Below are positions 4,106 to 19,912 of a DNA stretch of 20,997 bases, one piece after another. Within the stretch, counting starts at the first letter, position 1; each line of letters starts with the position of its first letter. Origin of the DNA: a virus; the IMG/VR virus record IMGVR_UViG_3300003635_000029, positions 1 to 20,997 of that record; one strand, given 5' to 3'. The notes below the pieces were generated by a model. That model was not told the origin of the DNA. It did not search any database and saw only the letters and a program-made list of their open reading frames with translations. A program made the translations under genes and the position numbers.

Positions 4106-4368
4106 TGATTACTAATGGTCGCCAATCAGTTGGTGCTACAGCCGTAAAGATTGATGGTCGTAGCACTGTTTACAGTCGTTTGTATATTCACAATGACGAC
4201 ACGACAAAAGATTTATTTCTTGGCGGACCTAACGTGACTGTCGCTAATGGGTACAAGATTGCAAAACTTTCAACTGAGGAGTTTGACTTGCCACCGTTAA
4301 ACGACATTTACATGGTTAGCTCTGGCGGTAGCCATAATGTTTCTTGGATACGGATTGAGATTGACTAA
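4105..4368 (+). CDS. Small beta-rich protein of unknown function
   Basis: An 87-residue protein between portal and protease, joined to both by TAATG overlaps. Alternating polar and hydrophobic residues (STVYSRLYIHN, NVTVANGYKIAKL, NVSWIRIEID) suggest an all-beta fold with no membrane segment or signal peptide. Small proteins in this position occur in other siphoviruses. A minor head component, decoration protein or part of the connector are all possible. I do not recognise a named family. Confidence 0.75.
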   Translation: MITNGRQSVGATAVKIDGRSTVYSRLYIHNDDTTKDLFLGGPNVTVANGYKIAKLSTEEFDLPPLNDIYMVSSGGSHNVSWIRIEID

Positions 4369-6263
4369 TGCCTTACTACATTTCTGATTCAGCGGAGGGT
4401 TGCTCAGGGTGGGCGACCATTAAAGAGGACGGCGAAGTTATGGGATGCCACGAAACTAAACAAGACGCTATCGACCAGGGTGTCGCTATTGCTGCGAACG
4501 AGGATTCTGAGTTTCTTGGCGAGCGCGCAATGCCTGGTACTTTAAACGCTGGCGACTTTGTTGCTTGGCGTGAGGGTGGCGAGCTATACCAGGGTCGCGT
4601 CCGCGAGATTGTTACTTCTGGTTCTATTGCTGTGCCAAATTCGGGTGTAACTGTTGACGCTACTCTGTTTGATCCTGCAGCGTTAGTGCAAATGTGGGAG
4701 CAGGTAGATGGCACCTGGGTTGAAAGTTCTACTTTCCTTGGCTTCCGTTTTTCTCAGTTGACAAAAGTGGGTGCTTTGCCTCCTGGGGAGATGCCAGAGT
4801 TTACGTTTGAGGATGATGACGCACCGGAGGGCTATCATTACATGCCAGATGGAACCTTGATGCTTGATTCTGAGCATGAGGGAGAACGCGCTGCACCTGA
4901 CGCGCTTTCCGTAGATGACTTTGTTTCTTGGAATACTTCTGGTGGTCGCGCTAGAGGGCAAATCGAAAGAATCGAAAGAGACGGCTCGATAAACGTGCCG
5001 GACAGCTCATTCACTATTGAAGGGACAGAAGATGATCCAGCAGCTCTTATCCGCATATGGCGGGAAGGTGAAGAAGGGTACGAAGCGTCCGAAACTCTTG
5101 TAGGACACAAGTTCTCTACTCTCACTAAGATTGACAGTCTGCGCTCGGTTGAGATGGAGCAACGAGAGGTGAACCTGACTCCACCTGCTTACATGCGTGC
5201 TGCAGCCCGTCAGGGGTTGAAGTATCACGAGGAAGGTTTGTCTGGTGATGGTTTGCGCCCGCAGACAGTCCGTGAGGCTCGCGCAATGGCGGCAGGTAAC
5301 GTCAGCGCGGACAAGTGGGTTCGTTTGGCAGCGTGGATTGCACGCCACATGGGTGATCTTGACTCACCTGCAGCAAACCCTAACAATGATGATTACCCGT
5401 CGGCTGGTGTTGTTGCACACTTGTTGTGGGGTTCTGGGCCTTCTAAGCGTGCCGCGCGTCGCGCAATGGAGTATGCGGAAGGTGTTGTCGCTAGACTAGA
5501 AGAAGAGAATCGTGAGCGCGTGAGCGTGGAGGCTAGGGATATGGCAAAGATTGAAACGAGAACGAACACGGCACAGTTTGAGGTTCGTGAGCTAGATGGT
5601 GGCGGTTCTACGTTCACCGGTTACGCTGCTGTGTTCAACTCGCCTAGCGAACCGTTGCCGTTCACTGAGACGATTGCTCCTGGAGCGTTCAAGCGTTCGT
5701 TGCAGTCCCGTAACGATGTGAAACTGTTGTGGAATCACGACTCGGGTATTGTGCTTGGTTCTACACGCGCAGGGACGTTGCGTTTGGAAGAGGACAACAT
5801 TGGTTTGCGTGTGAGCGCTGATTTGCCTGACACTCAGGCTGGACGTGACGCAGCCTATTTGATTCGCCGTGGTGATGTGGACGCTATGTCGTTTGGTTTC
5901 TCTGTGCCGAAGGGTGGCGACGAGTGGGTGTCGGAGAACGAGCGTGTGCTTCGTTCGGTCAGAATTTTCGAGACCAGCGTAGTGGCGTTCCCTGCGTACA
6001 CCGGTACTGCTGGTAGCACGTCGGTGCGTGAGCTGGAACGTGTTGCTACCCGCGCTGCTGTGGATGCTGACGAACTTGCTGACGCTATGTTGGCTATGGA
6101 GTCAGGTCTGGACTTGTCGAAGGATCAGGCGAACTTGCTGATTGATGTTGCTAACAAGTTGAGCGACAGTGGCGAACCGGAAGAGTCGTCGGATGACAGT
6201 ATTGACCCGTCTATGCTGGAACTGAAGAAAAAGAAACTAGAACAACTCCTGAAAGGGATTTAA
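4368..6263 (+). CDS. Multi-domain HK97-type prohead maturation protease
   Basis: A 631-residue protein whose protease part occupies only about residues 395-548. That part resembles the U35/HK97 prohead protease: WNHDSG with His457, DAMSFGFS with Ser508, and ETSVVAFPAY (535-544). It should cleave the capsid N-terminal delta domain during maturation. Ahead of it are a 50-residue Cys-containing domain (GCSGWATIKEDGEVMGCHET, 11-30), a tandem duplication of an about 85-residue SH3/Tudor-like beta domain (55-138 and 175-259; GDFVAW and DDFVSW starts, QLTKVGALP and TLTKIDSLR ends), a YHYMPDG linker (156-162), and a helical domain (267-385, with HLLWGSGPSKRAARRAMEYA). The C-terminal about 80 residues are helical and charged, ending in KKKKLEQLLKGI, possibly scaffold-like. 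Usual proteases of this family are nearer 200 residues, so this is a large fusion. Confidence 0.9.
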   Translation: MPYYISDSAEGCSGWATIKEDGEVMGCHETKQDAIDQGVAIAANEDSEFLGERAMPGTLNAGDFVAWREGGELYQGRVREIVTSGSIAVPNSGVTVDATLFDPAALVQMWEQVDGTWVESSTFLGFRFSQLTKVGALPPGEMPEFTFEDDDAPEGYHYMPDGTLMLDSEHEGERAAPDALSVDDFVSWNTSGGRARGQIERIERDGSINVPDSSFTIEGTEDDPAALIRIWREGEEGYEASETLVGHKFSTLTKIDSLRSVEMEQREVNLTPPAYMRAAARQGLKYHEEGLSGDGLRPQTVREARAMAAGNVSADKWVRLAAWIARHMGDLDSPAANPNNDDYPSAGVVAHLLWGSGPSKRAARRAMEYAEGVVARLEEENRERVSVEARDMAKIETRTNTAQFEVRELDGGGSTFTGYAAVFNSPSEPLPFTETIAPGAFKRSLQSRNDVKLLWNHDSGIVLGSTRAGTLRLEEDNIGLRVSADLPDTQAGRDAAYLIRRGDVDAMSFGFSVPKGGDEWVSENERVLRSVRIFETSVVAFPAYTGTAGSTSVRELERVATRAAVDADELADAMLAMESGLDLSKDQANLLIDVANKLSDSGEPEESSDDSIDPSMLELKKKKLEQLLKGI

Positions 6264-6621: not shown

Positions 6622-7776
6622 ATGTCTGAGTTCATCAAGTCTCAGCAGGAAATCCGCGCAAACCTTGCTGCACAGATTCAGGAAAGCCTGGATGTTGCAG
6701 AGGAGCGTGGGGGCCTGAATGAAGAGACTCTTAACAAGGTGAACGCTCTTGAGGCTGACATCCGCGCCGCTGATGAAGCGATTGCTGTTGCCCAGCGTGC
6801 AGAAGAGCGTAAAAACGAGGCTGCTGAAGCTTCTCGTGGATTCGTGCCCAACGCTGAGGCACGCAACGAGAGCGATGTGCTTCGCGCAATCGGTAAGGGT
6901 GAAATCCGTGAGCACATGTTTGAACAGCGTGCGCTTTCTTCGTCCACCGACACCGTACCTGTTTCGTTCTTCGACCAGGTGTTCCAGGTTGCTCGTCTCG
7001 TTGGGCCCATGCTCGACACTTCCGAGGTCCTGAACACGACTTCTGGCGAGAACATCACCGTTCCCACCATGACCGCTTACAGCACTGCTTCGCTGAAGGC
7101 TGAAGGTTCCGCTATTGCTGAGTCTGACCCCACCTTCTCAAGCATCACGCTTGGCGCTTACAAGTACAGCTTCCTCATCGGAGTCAGCAACGAGCTGATT
7201 GCGGATGCAGGGTTTAACCTTGAGGCGCTGCTTGCTGAGCAGGCTGGTAACGCAATCGGCTTTGGTGTCAACGGCGCACTCACCACGGGTGACGGAAGCG
7301 ACAAGCCAAACGGTATTGTTACTGCTGCTGGTTCTGGTGTCACCGGTGGAACCGCCGTTTCTGGTGCGTTCACCGCTGACAACCTCATTGACCTGATTTA
7401 CTCGCTGGATGGTGCGGCTCGCCGTCTCCCCGGTGTTGGATTCCAGGCAAACACCGCTTCGGTTGGTGCAATGCGGAAGCTGAAAGACCAAGCCGGACAA
7501 TACCTCTACCAAGTTGGTGTTGGACAGCCGGACTCGTTCGCTGGTTTCCCCATCTTCGAGAACCCTGCAATGGCTGACATTGCTACGGACGCCAAGTCGG
7601 TTATCTTCGGACACCTGCCTTCCTACAAGGTTCGCATGGCTGGCGGTCTACAGGTTGCTTCGAGCACCGACTACGCATTCAACAAGGATCAGACCTTCTA
7701 CCGGTTCCTGATGCGCGTTGACGGCGACTTGACCCACGCTGGTCACGTCAAGTACTTCGTGGGAGCTTCTTCCTAG
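6622..7776 (+). CDS. Major capsid protein, HK97 fold
   Basis: A 384-residue major capsid protein of the HK97 (Phage_capsid) type, forming the icosahedral shell. Residues 1 to about 103 are charged and helical with coiled-coil character (delta domain, internal scaffold), and the ordered shell domain begins near residue 104, where the upstream protease probably cuts. The shell part shows VPVSFFDQVFQVARLVGPML (112-131), NITVPTM, KYSFLIGVSNELIADA, and a C-terminal FRFLMRVDG-like strand region ending in YFVGASS. The start is set by an excellent AAGGAG ribosome-binding site. Its codons are richer in C-ending forms (AAC, ACC, CTC) than the neighbouring glycosyltransferase genes, as expected for very high expression. 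It is a one-gene transcription unit bounded by terminators. Confidence 0.95.
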   Translation: MSEFIKSQQEIRANLAAQIQESLDVAEERGGLNEETLNKVNALEADIRAADEAIAVAQRAEERKNEAAEASRGFVPNAEARNESDVLRAIGKGEIREHMFEQRALSSSTDTVPVSFFDQVFQVARLVGPMLDTSEVLNTTSGENITVPTMTAYSTASLKAEGSAIAESDPTFSSITLGAYKYSFLIGVSNELIADAGFNLEALLAEQAGNAIGFGVNGALTTGDGSDKPNGIVTAAGSGVTGGTAVSGAFTADNLIDLIYSLDGAARRLPGVGFQANTASVGAMRKLKDQAGQYLYQVGVGQPDSFAGFPIFENPAMADIATDAKSVIFGHLPSYKVRMAGGLQVASSTDYAFNKDQTFYRFLMRVDGDLTHAGHVKYFVGASS

Positions 7777-7796
7777 TAGTTGACGACACGCTGAGA

Positions 7797-7831
7797 GGCC
7801 GGGGTTGTGGGTTGCCCCGGCCTTTCTGTTT
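7797..7831 (+). terminator. Rho-independent terminator after the capsid gene
   Basis: GGCCGGGG (7797-7804) pairs perfectly with CCCCGGCC (7815-7822) around a 10-nt loop, followed by TTTCTGTTT. This strong terminator isolates the capsid mRNA from the glycosyltransferase cassette. Confidence 0.9.
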
Positions 7832-7845
7832 GCTAGGATGCTTTT
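7832..7845 (+). promoter_or_regulatory. Leaderless-type promoter of the glycosyltransferase cassette
   Basis: TAGGAT (7834-7839) is preceded by TGC overlap (TTTGC) and ends 6 nt before the ATG at 7846, so the predicted transcript starts at the ATG. The 6-nt spacer GCTTTT has no ribosome-binding site, which supports a leaderless message. The -35 region falls inside the terminator stem. The same layout is seen at 38 and 11789. Confidence 0.5.
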
Positions 7846-9063
7846 ATGGGGAAAAAGGGTAATCCTGCTGTACAAGAACAACTTTCTGGTGCTTTCGGTG
7901 TTTGGTCTAATTCTTATGACGCACCGACTGGGTATGGGCAACAGGTCAAGTATCTAATCGACCGGCTTGTCCGTCAGGGGTTAGATGTTGCTAACTTTTC
8001 CAACTTTGGGTTGGAGGGGCAGATTGGCAGCATTGAGACTCCGCATGGGCGTGTGACGCATTATCCGCGTAGCTTTACTGGTTATTCGCAGGACGCGGCA
8101 CCGTTGGACTTTATGACGTGGAGTAACTCGGTCCAGAAGAAGAACCTGTTTTTCACGTTGTATGACGTGTGGGTTTTAGAGTCACCGCATTATGAGAAGT
8201 TTGACCAGATTTGGTCGTGGACTCCGTTGGATCATATTGTGATGCCGTCGAAGGTTGAACAGTGGTTGCGGCGCGACAACGTGTTGCCTATTGCAATGTC
8301 ACCGTTTGGGAAACGCGAGATGGACGCTAAGGGTATTGAGAACGCTTATGTTCCTCACGGTATTGACACGAAGGTGTTGAAGGAGTCGTGGGAGTTGTCG
8401 TCTGGGTCTGATGTGCGTGACTATTGGAAGACTCGGGACAAGTTTGTTGTGGGTATGGTTGCCGCGAATAAGGCGTCGGGGTTGGTTCACCGTAAGGCGT
8501 TTAGTGAGAACTTGATGGCGTTTAGTATTTTCCAGAAGCGTCACCCGGATGCTGTGTTGTATTTGCACACGGATGGTTCTGGTAGCGGTATTGGTTGGAA
8601 CTTGTTGGAGTTGTTGAAGTCTTTGGGTGTGCCGGAGAAGTCGGTGTTGTTTGTGAACCCGCTTGAGTACCGTTATGGGGCGACGCAGGAGAACCTGGCG
8701 TGTTATTACACGGGTATGGATGTGTTGTTGGCTGCTTCTATGGGTGAGGGTTTTGGTGTGCCGACGATTGAGGCGCAGGCCACGGGTACACCTGTGATTG
8801 CGTCTAACTGGGCTGCGTCGCAGGACCTTGTGTCTGATGATGGTTGGTTGGTTGACGGGACACCGGTGTGGGATGCGGGTCAGTTGTCGTGGTGGCAGAC
8901 ACCTTCTGTGCCTTCTATTGTGGATGCGTTGGAGCAGGCTTACGATCGTGGTAAGGGTCGTTCGCAGGTGTCTGTGGACTTTGCGCGACAGTTTGATGTT
9001 GAGAAGGTGTGGAAAGAGTCTTGGATGCCTTTGCTGAGGACCTATTTTGATAAAGCTCAATGA
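7846..9063 (+). CDS. GT4-type glycosyltransferase
   Basis: A 405-residue GT-B-fold glycosyltransferase, predicted to move a sugar from a nucleotide donor to an acceptor in the cytoplasm. The GT4 signature is clear: EGFGVPTIE (301-309, E-x7-E) followed by ATGTPVIAS. The N-terminal half has the expected Gly-rich acceptor-side start (YDAPTGYGQQV, 24-34), and the linker has YVPHGID (168-174) before the donor-binding half beginning near residue 200. No signal peptide or membrane segment is seen. It begins a three-gene overlapping cassette placed between the capsid and connector genes, so the acceptor is more likely a virion protein than DNA or cell wall. No sugar-nucleotide synthesis gene accompanies it, so the donor would come from the host. 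Codon use is strongly TTG/GTG-rich. Confidence 0.9.
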   Translation: MGKKGNPAVQEQLSGAFGVWSNSYDAPTGYGQQVKYLIDRLVRQGLDVANFSNFGLEGQIGSIETPHGRVTHYPRSFTGYSQDAAPLDFMTWSNSVQKKNLFFTLYDVWVLESPHYEKFDQIWSWTPLDHIVMPSKVEQWLRRDNVLPIAMSPFGKREMDAKGIENAYVPHGIDTKVLKESWELSSGSDVRDYWKTRDKFVVGMVAANKASGLVHRKAFSENLMAFSIFQKRHPDAVLYLHTDGSGSGIGWNLLELLKSLGVPEKSVLFVNPLEYRYGATQENLACYYTGMDVLLAASMGEGFGVPTIEAQATGTPVIASNWAASQDLVSDDGWLVDGTPVWDAGQLSWWQTPSVPSIVDALEQAYDRGKGRSQVSVDFARQFDVEKVWKESWMPLLRTYFDKAQ

Positions 9064-9688
9064 CCTGCGTAACAATGCTAAAGGTGAAACTGTTTGGGTA
9101 CTCGGTTCGGGGCCTTCTCTAAACTTTATTGACCCTGCGTTTTTTGCGGATAAAACGGTGGTGTCTACGAACTATTCGGCGCGAACTATCGGCATCACAG
9201 CGGACTATGTGTTCAGCCATTACCATCACGTTGCGTTAGACCTTCTCTTGGAGGGCAGTATTGCGGTTACGTTGAAGCAGGACACCGTTACCCATAAAGA
9301 GTGGGGTTTGGGCGACTGGGAGACGTTGTGTCTTGTACATCAGGATTCTTATGCTGCCCCTGGGGATGCGTGGAACCCGTTTGATAGGAACCCGCCACGC
9401 CCGGACAGTCTTGCTTACGGATCGTCAAGTTTGCATGGGGCAATGCACTTGGCGGCACATTTAGGTGCGGCACACATCATGCTTGTTGGTGCTGACTGTG
9501 GAACGATTGATGACAAACATCGTGTTGACGAGTACCCGGTTGATGGTCACAAACCTTGGTTGCTATACAACAAACATCATCAGTTGATGAAGGCTTGGCT
9601 TATCGCACATTACGGTGTGACAGTGTACTCGTTGAACCCGTTTATCAACTTGAACCTTGAAGGTCACACGTTTGCGGGTGTTGCATGA
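9047..9688 (+). CDS. DUF115 / sialyltransferase-like protein
   Basis: A 213-residue protein with an N-terminal VLGSGPSL motif (18-25) and a downstream YGSSSLHGAMHLAAHLG segment leading into IMLVGADCG (144-152). This is the pattern of the DUF115 (MptE/Maf-like) group; the GxGPSL start is also shared with GT42-type sialyltransferases. A sugar-transfer or nucleotide-sugar-related role fits its place between two glycosyltransferases. The start is TTG at 9047, chosen because GAGGA (9036-9040) lies 6 nt upstream and no in-frame ATG is nearby. It overlaps the previous gene by 17 nt and the next by ATGA. The exact activity cannot be told from sequence. Confidence 0.8.
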   Translation: MIKLNDLRNNAKGETVWVLGSGPSLNFIDPAFFADKTVVSTNYSARTIGITADYVFSHYHHVALDLLLEGSIAVTLKQDTVTHKEWGLGDWETLCLVHQDSYAAPGDAWNPFDRNPPRPDSLAYGSSSLHGAMHLAAHLGAAHIMLVGADCGTIDDKHRVDEYPVDGHKPWLLYNKHHQLMKAWLIAHYGVTVYSLNPFINLNLEGHTFAGVA

Positions 9689-10344
9689 TTCCGGTGATGG
9701 TTGTGCCGGTGTTGAACCGGTATGACTTGTTGCAACGCATGTTGGACTCTATTGATTACCCTGTTCGTGATTTGCTGATTATTGATAACGGTAATGGGCT
9801 TGAGGATGTGACGGTGCCTTGGAGGGTCGCTGACGCACACATTTTGCGGTTGCCTGCGAACCTTGGTGTGTCTGGGTCGTGGAATTTTGGTATCAAGATG
9901 TTTCCGCACGCCGAGAAGTGGCTTTTTGCGTCTAATGATGTCGTGTTTGGCAGAGGTGCCCTTGAGACGCTCTCAGAGGCTCGTGGAGACGAGATAGTGC
10001 TCTCTGATGTGTTTCCCTTCTGGCACACCTTTTCTGTCGGTGACGAGGCTGTCAGCAGGCTCGGTTTGTTCGACGAGTGCGGTTTTTTCCCTGCTTACTA
10101 CGAAGACAACGATTATCAACGTCGCGCAGATTATCACGGTGTCACAGTACGCAAATTAGCGTTCCCGGTGACGCATGACAACTCGTCAACGATTAGATCG
10201 GATGAGTCTTTCAATCAGGCTAACTCGCAAACGTTTGCGCGTAACAAAAAACACTTTGACAACAAGGTGAGGATGGATGACTTTACTCCTGGCGAGTATT
10301 CTTTGCAGCGTCGTCGCGTGAACGACTGGAGTGTCCCACGATAG
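9685..10344 (+). CDS. GT2-type glycosyltransferase
   Basis: A 219-residue GT-A-fold family 2 glycosyltransferase. The N-terminus reads VVPVLNRYDLLQRMLDSID (6-24), the nucleotide-binding strand ends in IIDNG (32-36), and PANLGVSGSWNFGI (57-70) matches rhamnosyltransferase-like members. SND (83-85) stands at the DxD position, and YYEDNDYQRRADYHG (138-152) contains the catalytic-base region. No membrane segments are present, so it acts as a soluble enzyme. It is the last gene of the cassette, starting within the stop of the DUF115-like gene, and its stop codon overlaps a promoter-like motif for the next block. Confidence 0.9.
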   Translation: MIPVMVVPVLNRYDLLQRMLDSIDYPVRDLLIIDNGNGLEDVTVPWRVADAHILRLPANLGVSGSWNFGIKMFPHAEKWLFASNDVVFGRGALETLSEARGDEIVLSDVFPFWHTFSVGDEAVSRLGLFDECGFFPAYYEDNDYQRRADYHGVTVRKLAFPVTHDNSSTIRSDESFNQANSQTFARNKKHFDNKVRMDDFTPGEYSLQRRRVNDWSVPR

Positions 10345-10352
10345 ACTAGATG
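10342..10352 (+). promoter_or_regulatory. Repeated TAGACTAGATG motif, candidate -10
   Basis: TAGACTAGATG overlaps the stop codon of the GT2 gene and precedes the adaptor ATG by 10 nt. It differs by one base from the copies at 2563 and 12237. TAGACT fits TANNNT. A good ribosome-binding site (GGAGGAC from 10353) follows immediately, so a transcript starting near 10354 would cut into that site; the motif may instead act at another register. Confidence 0.3.
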
Positions 10353-10362
10353 TGGAGGACTT

Positions 10363-10956
10363 ATGGCAATCACCAACGGCTACACTGATTTAACTACTAT
10401 AAAACTTAGTCTTGGCATCACCGACTCGGTTGATGACACTTGGCTTGAGATTTGCATCAACGCCGCGTCACGCGCAATCGACAACTTCGCGGAGCGTGTG
10501 TTCTATCAGACGAGCGCGTCACGAGTGTATATACCGGACGACAACTTTGTTGTAGAGATTGACGATCTTGCTACGTTGACGACGTTGAAGACGTCTACGA
10601 ACCTTGATGGTGTGTTTGACCAGACGTGGGGTGCGAATGACGCACAGTTGCAACCGTTGAACGGTATCGCTGGTGGTATTCCTTCTCCGACGACACATAT
10701 TCGTGCTGTGGGTGATTACTGGTTCCCGACGGGTGGTCGTGAAGCTACGGTGCAGGTGACGGGTACGTTCGGTTGGGATGCTGTGCCGGACGCTATCGAG
10801 CAAGCTTGTATCTTGCAGGCTGCACGTTACTTCAAGAGGGCAGACAGCCCTATGGGTGTCGCTGGTTTCGACGCTATGGGTGTTGTGCGTTTGTCCCGTA
10901 TTGACCCTGACATTGCAACGCTTTTGGAGCCGTACTGCCGTATTAGGATGGCGTAG
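10363..10956 (+). CDS. Head-tail connector (adaptor) protein
   Basis: A 197-residue protein of the gp6-like / Phage_connect type, which sits under the portal and links head to tail. The N-terminal YTDLTTIKLSLGITDSVDDT and then WLEICINAASRAIDNFAERVF (helices) match the start of this family. The middle is beta-rich, and the C-terminal helix IEQACILQAARYFKRADSP is the usual closing feature. It starts at ATG 10363 behind GGAGGAC. It opens the connector-tail block after the glycosyltransferase cassette. Confidence 0.88.
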   Translation: MAITNGYTDLTTIKLSLGITDSVDDTWLEICINAASRAIDNFAERVFYQTSASRVYIPDDNFVVEIDDLATLTTLKTSTNLDGVFDQTWGANDAQLQPLNGIAGGIPSPTTHIRAVGDYWFPTGGREATVQVTGTFGWDAVPDAIEQACILQAARYFKRADSPMGVAGFDAMGVVRLSRIDPDIATLLEPYCRIRMA

Positions 10957-17042: not shown

Positions 17043-17420
17043 ATGCCATATAAAGTTTGGGCTGTTAATGAGATTTTGACGGCTGCGGATATGAATACCT
17101 ATGTTGGTAATCAGACTGTTTTGTCGTTTGCTGGGACTGCTGCTCGTGCTTCTGCGGTGGGTACTCCGGTGGAGGGTATGGTTTCGTATGTTGGTGGTGG
17201 CACTGTTGAGGTTTATGCGGGTACTGCTGATGGTTGGACGACGATTAGTGGTGGTGGTGGTGGGAATGTTGCGGATGACAGTATTCAGCCGAACTTCAAC
17301 ACGATCAGTAATAATTACACGTTTGTTGATGGGTATAACGGTGTGTCTGCTGGGCCGATTACGATTGCGGTTGGTGCTACTGTGACTGTTGGTACTGCGA
17401 GTGCTTGGAGTGTTGTATGA
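17043..17420 (+). CDS. Tail fibre module, N-terminal attachment type
   Basis: A 125-residue protein. Its start, PYKVWAVNEILTAADMNTY, is a very common N-terminal module of actinophage tail fibre or tail tip proteins, followed by a strand-rich AARASAVGTPVEGMVSYV region, a poly-Gly linker and a Thr/Val-rich end. It is short for a full fibre, so it probably acts with the genes downstream. The ribosome-binding site AAGGA at 17032-17036 overlaps the previous stop. Confidence 0.75.
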   Translation: MPYKVWAVNEILTAADMNTYVGNQTVLSFAGTAARASAVGTPVEGMVSYVGGGTVEVYAGTADGWTTISGGGGGNVADDSIQPNFNTISNNYTFVDGYNGVSAGPITIAVGATVTVGTASAWSVV

Positions 17421-17983
17421 GTGAGTTGGCTGTTGGTTCGTTGGCGGGGTTGGCGTCTAATTCGTATGTGATTGATGTGGCGTCGGGGTCCCAGTTGACG
17501 CAACCGGGGATGACACTTGCCGTTGAGTCTGCCCTCAAAACCGACACATTTAGTTCGTCTGTCTCCGGTAAGGGTAGCGTTGCGGTAACTGATTTGTCTA
17601 TCACTCATACGATGGCTAATGCTTCTAATAAGCTTTTGATTATGGCTTATTTTGGTGTTGCGGGGAATAGTCACGGTTTTGGCAATGTCGGAATCGCAGT
17701 GGCAGACGATGGAACACTTATTGGTGTTGGTACCGGTGTGGGCGACCGTATTGCGGTTGCTGCTGGTGGTCTCGTGTCGTCCTCTTCGGCGACTCATGTT
17801 GTAGCGATGCCTCATATTCACTTACTTTACTCACCTGGCGATACAAGTTCACACACTTACACTGTGCGAGCTTTTAACATTCGCGGTGACACGCAAACTC
17901 TGTATGTAAACAGGTCGGTACGCGATGGCACAACCGACTCTCGTGGTGCTTCTGCTATCACTATCCAGGAGGTCGCTGGCTAA
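17417..17983 (+). CDS. Tail fibre-like protein, paralogue A
   Basis: A 188-residue protein. I take ATG at 17417 as the start because it overlaps the previous stop (ATGA) and follows GGAG at 17407-17410; an upstream in-frame TTG at 17405 would lack this. The body, from LKTDTFSS through THTMANASNKLLIMAYFG, is the jelly-roll-like pattern widespread in tail fibres of marine and freshwater phages. The end SAITIQEVAG is nearly the same as that of the gene at 18282, indicating a duplicated fibre domain. It probably contacts the host surface; the receptor is unknown. Confidence 0.75.
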   Translation: MSELAVGSLAGLASNSYVIDVASGSQLTQPGMTLAVESALKTDTFSSSVSGKGSVAVTDLSITHTMANASNKLLIMAYFGVAGNSHGFGNVGIAVADDGTLIGVGTGVGDRIAVAAGGLVSSSSATHVVAMPHIHLLYSPGDTSSHTYTVRAFNIRGDTQTLYVNRSVRDGTTDSRGASAITIQEVAG

Positions 17984-18281: not shown

Positions 18282-18863
18282 GTGTCTACGCTGAAGGTTA
18301 ATAACGTCACTGACCTGGGGGCGGATGCGGTTGTTACGGATGGTGTAATTGATTCGGGGGCGTTGCCTACAGGGTCGATTTTGCAGGTTGTTCAAGCTGC
18401 CAAAACCGATACGTTTAGCACGACAGCTACAAGCTTTACTGATGTCACAGGACTGTCTTTGTCAATTACACCATCATCGACAAGTAGCAAAATTCTTTTA
18501 ATGACATCTTTGTATGTCGGCTCGGGTTCTGGGAACCAGTCTAACGTTCATGTGCGTTTGGCGGGCGGTAATGCTAGTGCTTTCGTTGGTGATGCGGATT
18601 CAAGTAGAGGCAGGGCTGCCGCGTCGTCTTTGGCTGGCGAGGATACTACGGCTCGTACTGTTCAAGAGCATTTGGTAAATTCGGCAAGTATTGTTTATTT
18701 GGATAGTCCAGCAACGATTTCTGCTATTACTTACAAAGTGCAGATTGTGAACGCCGATAATACGGGAACGGCGGTTTATGTTGGCAGGCCTGCTGACAAT
18801 GCGGACAAGTTTACTGTTCCTCGCTTGGCTTCTTCTATTACTGCTATGGAGGTGGCTGGTTAA
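18282..18863 (+). CDS. Tail fibre-like protein, paralogue B
   Basis: A 193-residue protein starting at GTG 18282, supported by GGAGG at 18272-18276 and direct abutment on the previous stop. The N-terminal STLKVNNVTDLG motif is a common fibre start in environmental phages, followed by PTGSILQVVQAAKTDTFST, LSLSITPSSTSSKILLM and a C-terminal SSITAMEVAG. The last segment and the KTDTFS...SKxLLM core are shared with the gene at 17417, so the two probably fold alike and arose by duplication or module exchange. The N-terminal part up to residue about 35 differs and probably anchors it to a different partner. Confidence 0.78.
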   Translation: MSTLKVNNVTDLGADAVVTDGVIDSGALPTGSILQVVQAAKTDTFSTTATSFTDVTGLSLSITPSSTSSKILLMTSLYVGSGSGNQSNVHVRLAGGNASAFVGDADSSRGRAAASSLAGEDTTARTVQEHLVNSASIVYLDSPATISAITYKVQIVNADNTGTAVYVGRPADNADKFTVPRLASSITAMEVAG

Positions 18864-18955: not shown

Positions 18956-19912
18956 ATGTCTAGTGTTGCGAGGTTTGATACTTGGCAGGCTGCTGATGGT
19001 ACTAATGTTGCTCGTTTTAGTGGTGGGCAATTAGAGACTTGGGATGGGTCTGCTTGGGGCGCACCGACTCCCGGGGCAGCTGTTGTTGAATCTACGACTG
19101 GTTCTCCTAGTGTGGGAACGGTGTCCTCTGGTGGGACAACCTACAATGCTTATGTATTTACAGGTGACGGCTCGATTACTTTTAGTGAGGCTGGTTTTGC
19201 CGATGTCCTAGTCGTAGGTGGTGGGGGCGCAGGAAACCAGAACATCAACGCTGGAAACGCTGGGGGCGGGGCTGGTGGTGTTTTAAACCTAACTCAAGCT
19301 TACTTTGCCTTGGGGACTGCTGTCGTTCAGGTTGGTGCTGGTGCAGCCGGTGGACTGCCTGCTGATATTGCTAGAGGTGGTGAAAGTTCTCAAGTCAACG
19401 GTTACTACGGTGTTGGCGGAGGACCTGGCGGATTCCGAACAAACGGCGGATTTGGCGGATCTGGCGGAGGCGGCGGTTCTGAAAACTCTGCGTTTGTAGG
19501 TGGGCCCGCTCTTGACGGTCAGGGTGGAGCAGGTGGCACTGGTTTTGGTTCAGGAACAATAAACGCCCGAGCTGGCGGGGGCGGAGGCGGTGGCTCTGCA
19601 TCAGGTGGAAACGCAAGCTCAAGCAACGCGGGAGCTGGTGGTGATGGCAAAATTGTGAACATCATCACAACTGCTCTGGCAACAAGTTTTTCCGTAGGTG
19701 AAGTTTCAGGTTCGGACTTGTATTTTGGCGGTGGCGGTGGGGGCTCTTCGCCTTCGAGCGGTTCTGCATCAGGCGGCCTTGGTGGCGGGTCGAACGGCAA
19801 CAGCTCGACCTCTTCTAACGCGACTGCAAATACGGGCGGGGGAGCTGGTGGGGCCGGTAGTTCTTCAGGAAATGGCGGTTCAGGTGTTGTAATTGTAAGG
19901 GTGGCTGTCTAA
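18956..19912 (+). CDS. Glycine-rich tail fibre/adhesin
   Basis: A 318-residue protein. Residues 1-40 hold the RFDTWQAADG module and a tryptophan-containing linker (ETWDGSAWGAP), probably for attachment. A strand FTGDGSITFSEAGFADVLVV leads into a long Gly-rich part (about residues 88-310) with many GGG runs broken by Ser/Asn and short hydrophobic inserts, and the end is GSGVVIVRVAV. This matches glycine-rich tail-tip adhesins, some of which fold as polyglycine-II bundles with host-specificity loops between Gly blocks. Length is normal for such proteins. A GGGGGG run precedes the ATG. It is the best candidate in the window for the receptor-binding protein. Confidence 0.8.
   Translation: MSSVARFDTWQAADGTNVARFSGGQLETWDGSAWGAPTPGAAVVESTTGSPSVGTVSSGGTTYNAYVFTGDGSITFSEAGFADVLVVGGGGAGNQNINAGNAGGGAGGVLNLTQAYFALGTAVVQVGAGAAGGLPADIARGGESSQVNGYYGVGGGPGGFRTNGGFGGSGGGGGSENSAFVGGPALDGQGGAGGTGFGSGTINARAGGGGGGGSASGGNASSSNAGAGGDGKIVNIITTALATSFSVGEVSGSDLYFGGGGGGSSPSSGSASGGLGGGSNGNSSTSSNATANTGGGAGGAGSSSGNGGSGVVIVRVAV

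Follow-up and report, generated by a model that had tools for sequence, protein, structure and literature searches.

In these phages the space between the major capsid protein (MCP) and head-tail connector genes is, as judged by sequence comparison, a modular locus in which a GT4-type glycosyltransferase gene is fixed in first position, the genes behind it are exchangeable and empty slots exist. The window analyzed here (the whole stretch of 20,997 nt) carries a GT4, a DUF115-like and a GT2 gene in this slot, and its identity patterns indicate that it is itself a recombinant, in which one exchange replaced the middle gene together with GT2 while GT4 was kept with the capsid gene. We consider it fairly probable (roughly 0.7) that the cassette consists of cytoplasmic virion-glycosylation genes in a modular slot, with GT4 starting a glycan that is extended or capped by the products of the exchangeable genes. 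Virion glycosylation, as proposed in an earlier note on this DNA, stays the leading reading given the head-operon position and the three folds, all of glycosylation type in profiles and models.

Three glycosylation-type genes in the head operon

The three ORFs between positions 7846 and 10344 were intact and each overlapped the next in the ORF list and sequence (Table 1), and dN/dS was well below 1 in the pairs for which it could be computed. They form a group of transferase-fold genes inside the head operon, flanked by the MCP and connector genes; apart from them, gene order is the usual one, from terminase through portal, protease, capsid and connector to tail. The overlapping GT4, DUF115-like and GT2 trio described earlier was thus borne out by ORFs, profiles and models, and its three different glycosylation folds were supported by Pfam, PHROG, and AlphaFold models with structure comparison. 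No transmembrane-type segment was found in the cassette proteins (maximum KD19 1.26).

Table 1 Features in and around the capsid-connector slot of the window.
Feature	Position	Strand	Basis
HK97-type MCP gene	6622..7776	+	Pfam Phage_capsid 8e-55, phrog_10
Putative intrinsic terminator, perfect 9-bp stem (7796-7804/7815-7823), then T-rich tract	7796..7831	+	sequence
Predicted leaderless-type promoter, extended -10 box TGC-TAGGAT (7831-7839) and 6-nt gap	7831..7845	+	sequence
GT4-type (GT-B) glycosyltransferase, ATG start, 405 aa	7846..9063	+	PF13692 1.7e-11, phrog_2170 9e-35
MptE/DUF115-like protein, TTG start, 213 aa, 17-nt overlap with GT4	9047..9688	+	PF01973 7e-7, phrog_4603 1.9e-6
Swapped module (middle gene and GT2)	9050..10345	+	sliding DNA identity and per-gene protein identities
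GT2-type (GT-A) glycosyltransferase, ATG start, 219 aa, 4-nt overlap	9685..10344	+	phrog_29879 3e-57
gp6-like head-tail connector, bounding the slot on the right	10363..10956	+	Pfam PF05135 1.7e-6, phrog_442 8e-17

The GT4 protein matched Glyco_trans_1_4 (PF13692) with 45 bits against a cut-off of 27, contains the E-x7-E motif as EGFGVPTIE and belongs to CAZy GT4 (GT-B). The GT2 protein matched Glycos_transf_2 just under the Pfam cut-off (1e-4), and its AF2 model (pLDDT 94; Foldseek E 3.5e-8; Z 14-16 to GT-A enzymes) predicted an unambiguous GT-A fold, in agreement with assignment to CAZy GT2 (GT-A); residues D85, E140, D141 and D143 (EDND) were invariant or nearly so. Its top match was to polypeptide GalNAc-transferases (Z 16.1), tied with a fucosyltransferase and a chondroitin polymerase, and with such ties we rejected choosing a glycan-initiating fold from structure.

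Two further features of the head region were observed. In the prohead protease (gene at 4368-6263), the protease domain occupies residues 404-560 and is preceded by 400 additional N-terminal residues that match Hva1_TUDOR twice, an unusual fusion that is seemingly kept in near relatives. Between the small and large terminase genes lies a short C5-type DNA methyltransferase-like gene (481-1092, 203 aa), whose profile match is confined to the N-terminal 76 residues.

A putative capsid terminator and a predicted leaderless-type cassette promoter

The GT4 ATG lies 6 nt downstream of a box with the motif TGn-TAnnnT. A strong hairpin occupied the same place behind the MCP gene in most relatives despite differing sequence, even where GT4 was only 45-60% identical, and in relatives at that level of identity the -10-like box held a distance of 6-7 nt to the ATG. 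By script, a -10 box at 5-8 nt preceded 27 of 51 distinct GT4 starts, with at least seven further starts recognized by eye, as the script misread an ATG inside or near the box (e.g. within TATGCT) as the GT4 start in at least seven cases. The box preceded 0/42 MCP starts, 0/24 portal starts and 3.5% of random positions. More distant clades had a Shine-Dalgarno-like sequence at GT4 in its place. The terminator and leaderless-type promoter ascribed to the cassette by the earlier note are therefore conserved as sequence features; the terminator was also found behind the MCP gene of empty-slot phages, which would assign it to the capsid gene and only the promoter to the cassette.

In empty-slot phages (L157-L175, L189), the capsid terminator was often followed by a TAAACT box placed 6 nt upstream of the connector ATG, and the combination of terminator and leaderless start hence seems to be a general arrangement of these head operons. 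Among more distant relatives, CCTGCG hexamers occurred near the GT4 start in L075, L076, L077, L080 and L088 (repeated in L075 and L088), and several of these loci had a GAGCGCAGG-like sequence in the terminator loop upstream of GT4.

Slot content varies behind a fixed first gene

Loci were gathered with GT4, the middle gene, GT2 and, cassette-blind, the capsid protein as queries, yielding 67 distinct capsid-connector slots with both borders present, for which counts are biased by seeding except in the capsid-seeded set and many contigs are fragments. Fourteen of the 67 slots were empty, with 15-96 nt between the flanking ORFs, and 53 were occupied. GT4 was present and first in every occupied slot (53/53) and stood alone in five, while GT2 was found in 45, the DUF115-like gene in 20 and psMT in 6. 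The capsid-seeded set comprised 22 empty and 25 occupied contigs, all of the latter with GT4 (25/25). A search for the trio beside capsid genes in other phages had been proposed earlier; in the slots compared here the leading GT4 was constant, and in many of them a methyltransferase or other sugar genes took the place of the middle gene. GT2 usually followed next or closed the slot.

Where they could be identified, slot genes belonged to sugar chemistry; a few slot ORFs were without a Pfam match. They included genes for NAD-dependent epimerase/GDP-mannose dehydratase (L076, L080, L183), an RmlD-like protein (L177), UDP-glucose dehydrogenase (L029), cytidylyltransferase (L039, L040, L139, L180) and rhamnosyl-O-methyltransferase/TylF (L072), as well as other methyltransferases and TOD1/MUCI70, GT17 and GT7-like domains. 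In Microcystis phage Mae-JY09 the capsid gene is directly followed by a GT4 homologue and an epimerase gene, and the head region of Synechococcus phage S-CBS4 contains GT4-GT2-methyltransferase. In the closest cultured relative, Pontimonas phage phiPsal1 (MG835450), genes 010-012 fill the same slot between the MCP and neck genes in the order GT4, methyltransferase, GT2; its GT4 and GT2 were each 51% identical to those of the window, whereas a SAM methyltransferase gene, encoded on the opposite strand, stands where the window has the DUF115-like gene. The source paper of phiPsal1 does not discuss the phage genes (PMC6106888). A DUF115-like gene followed by a methyltransferase and a GT4-like gene also occurred in an Actinomycetales MAG (L195, 5863-8380), with no head genes recognized nearby.

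The middle gene and GT2 exchanged as a unit

Protein identities between the window and the nearest clade (e.g. L006) were 96% for portal, 89% for MCP, 85% for GT4, 90% for the connector and 90% for the tail tube, compared to 43% for the middle gene and 55% for GT2. Against a distant clade (e.g. L049) the pattern was inverted, with 52% for MCP, 47% for GT4 and 54% for the connector compared to 72% for both genes of the swapped pair. In a sliding comparison, DNA identity to L006 fell from about 80% to 41-74% at ~9050-10345 and returned to 84% at 10350, while identity to L049/L058 rose from about 55% to 59-85% over ~9050-10345. The breakpoints coincide with gene borders, at the overlap of GT4 with the middle gene and at the GT2/connector junction, and it is this inversion between near and distant clades at gene borders that points to exchange of the two genes together.

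Over loci, GT4 identity tracked MCP identity (Mantel r = 0.92, with MCP-portal at 0.93), and correlations with MCP were lower for GT2 (0.62) and the DUF115-like gene (0.61). Physical linkage contributes to the co-inheritance of GT4 and MCP, and linkage alone could account for it.

Fold and likely role of the middle protein

The middle protein matched PF01973 (MptE-like, former DUF115) with 29.6 bits, below the curated cut-off of 34.6, and its PHROG match, phrog_4603, is an alpha-2,3-sialyltransferase family. When its sequence was searched against solved structures, no meaningful match emerged, even with the threshold relaxed to E 10. Plain Foldseek against PDB placed mostly Rossmann dehydrogenases on top, and HPPK, Maf and sialyltransferases were separated only by the VIA second structural comparison. 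The AF2 model (pLDDT 83) was tied between archaeal HPPK/MptE (Z 12.7 over 156 residues) and Maf glycosyltransferase (Z 12.3 over 177 residues), followed by SteA and then by Cst-I/CstII (Z 8.9) and mammalian GT29 (Z about 7). The predicted structure is the fold that MptE has in common with the central domain of Maf (PF01973), shared with the GT42 enzymes Cst-I and CstII; the protein is only 15-18% identical to Maf/Cst and is without the N- and C-terminal domains of Maf. For GT42, the Pfam scan gave no match to PF06002 (CST-I family) and the likeness is one of fold, while a CST-I family search over genomes returned zero matches, controls included, and is uninformative.

The middle protein is probably a CMP-sugar transferase. 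It could be a nonulosonate or Kdo transferase, because Maf enzymes with a PF01973-type domain use CMP-nonulosonates and CMP-Kdo on flagellin (PMC11339370), genes for sialic acid and Kdo are reported from Pontimonas (PMC6106888), and NeuB and NeuA/KdsB-family genes occur in a Microbacteriaceae MAG, possibly a mixed one, that holds a trio phage contig. The phage host is probably among tiny aquatic actinobacteria, to judge from phiPsal1 and one MAG. Among non-subscription papers screened by title and abstract, none treated phage DUF115-like genes as virion-glycosylation genes.

Weighing virion glycosylation against other roles

Since a fixed, capsid-linked and sometimes solitary GT4 precedes exchangeable sugar genes, the cassette resembles an initiating glycosyltransferase with a variable glycan-building module, in which GT4 is probably the initiating enzyme and the MCP, encoded directly upstream, a possible acceptor. 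Late in infection, the trio would be transcribed from its own leaderless promoter just past the capsid terminator, and GT4, acting in the cytoplasm, would add the first sugar to a virion protein of high abundance, with the capsid as the likeliest target. The glycan would then be extended, capped or decorated by the exchangeable part, here by GT2 and the Maf/GT42-fold enzyme, which may transfer a host-made CMP-activated nonulosonic acid or Kdo. By swapping this second part, phages would change the glycan while GT4 remains with the capsid. In this scheme we infer the acceptor, the sugars, the order of steps and the advantage.

A C-terminal glycan site has been reported for mycobacteriophages, and for this reason the C-termini of the capsid and tail tube proteins were checked; neither is Ser/Thr-rich. 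Ser/Thr content of the MCPs of cassette-bearing phages was not above that of empty-slot phages, and at strict thresholds no MCP column separated the two groups. Relaxed Ser/Thr positions (e.g. 134, 155, 163, 168 and 238) were rejected, as they were confounded by phylogeny and matched in opposite cases too. Elsewhere in the window, two Ser/Thr-rich proteins (17405-17983 and 18282-18863) share segments around an AxKTDTFS motif in the manner of paralogues; they may be fibre or decoration proteins and could serve as other acceptors for the glycan. A glycine-rich protein of adhesin-like composition is encoded at 18956-19912 (phrog_2295, function unknown, 4.5e-32).

The main rival for the middle gene is a role as an MptE-like pyrophosphokinase or other nucleotide-binding protein, which would leave the cassette with two transferases and an unrelated enzyme. 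Both the Pfam name and the archaeal HPPK, a pterin pyrophosphokinase, among the best structure matches agree with this, but Maf aligned over more residues, the Cst-I/CstII and GT29 sialyltransferases came next in the structure ranking, the PHROG match is a sialyltransferase, and the gene is a steady partner of two transferases that other sugar genes replace; we therefore judge such a role improbable. A more specific version of virion glycosylation, in which capsids carry nonulosonate-ended glycans and lineages swap the second half of the pathway as a glycotype cassette behind a capsid-specific initiator, likened to capsule-locus swapping in bacteria, is put forward tentatively.

Phage transferases often change host surfaces, and the enzymes might instead alter host cell-wall or surface glycopolymers in infection, for example by blocking re-adsorption of progeny or competitors. 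In Pontimonas, the cell-wall transferases form an unusually large set that was acquired horizontally (PMC6106888), and the sugar-nucleotide genes in related slots would also fit. Against this, the cassette proteins are without a membrane segment and the genes lie in the late head operon, where they invariably follow the capsid gene and are inherited together with it; moreover, phiPsal1 was judged lytic, with no integration (PMC6106888), and lysogenic conversion is therefore unlikely. Taken together, action on the host surface appears rather unlikely. Transferases acting on modified DNA are well known in phages (as cited in PMC12619734), so glycosylation of phage DNA bases against restriction could also be envisaged, yet the cassette lies in the late head operon and methyltransferase/dehydratase content is varied. 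No thymidylate synthase/hydroxymethylase family gene was found in complete phiPsal1 or in two 31-35 kb relatives, nor was one present in the phiPsal1 annotation, and because all three relatives are without such a hydroxymethylase we regard DNA modification as very improbable.

Comparison with known systems and implications

Among virion-glycosylation systems of the Che8/Corndog/Myrna type, that of the actinobacteriophage Che8 (gp108-110) was shown experimentally by Freeman et al. 2023, as cited in PMC12363180 and PMC12619734, with the capsid and tail tube reported there as glycosylated. Like the window, Che8 has three overlapping glycosylation genes, one of them with a methyltransferase domain, but these belong to other Pfam/PHROG families (a GT2-TylF fusion, GT2 and GT25) and lie at the right genome end rather than beside the capsid gene. 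Orthology of the two trios was rejected, as the only similarity was a local GT2-profile match to gp109 (6.4 bits). The mycobacteriophage precedent invoked earlier thus applies to function and not to enzyme families, and the best explanation, by analogy, would be that the window cassette works like the Che8 trio without being orthologous to it. Maf enzymes offer a second parallel, as they work in the cytoplasm and attach nonulosonic acids to Ser/Thr residues of a surface protein that is being assembled (PMC11339370). Among viruses, PBCV-1 glycosylates its own capsid with its own enzymes (PMC11571054), and Chlorella virus NY-2A B736L (3oy2) is a virus-encoded GT-B with a weak match to the window GT4 (E 0.004). 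Chlorella viruses differ in their eukaryotic host and genome organization, and their homology to the window GT4 is only distant.

To our knowledge, glycosylation of the phage particle has been demonstrated for no more than a handful of phages, most of them mycobacteriophages. New here is the cassette as an exchangeable module with a fixed first GT4, empty slots and a variable middle gene. The empty, half-filled or variously filled slot, together with the swap in the window, suggests that environmental phages diversify the sugars of their particles under selection, and that phage particles may be substrates of a Maf/sialyltransferase-type enzyme. Variation in the slot offers natural comparisons with and without the cassette and a defined candidate acceptor.
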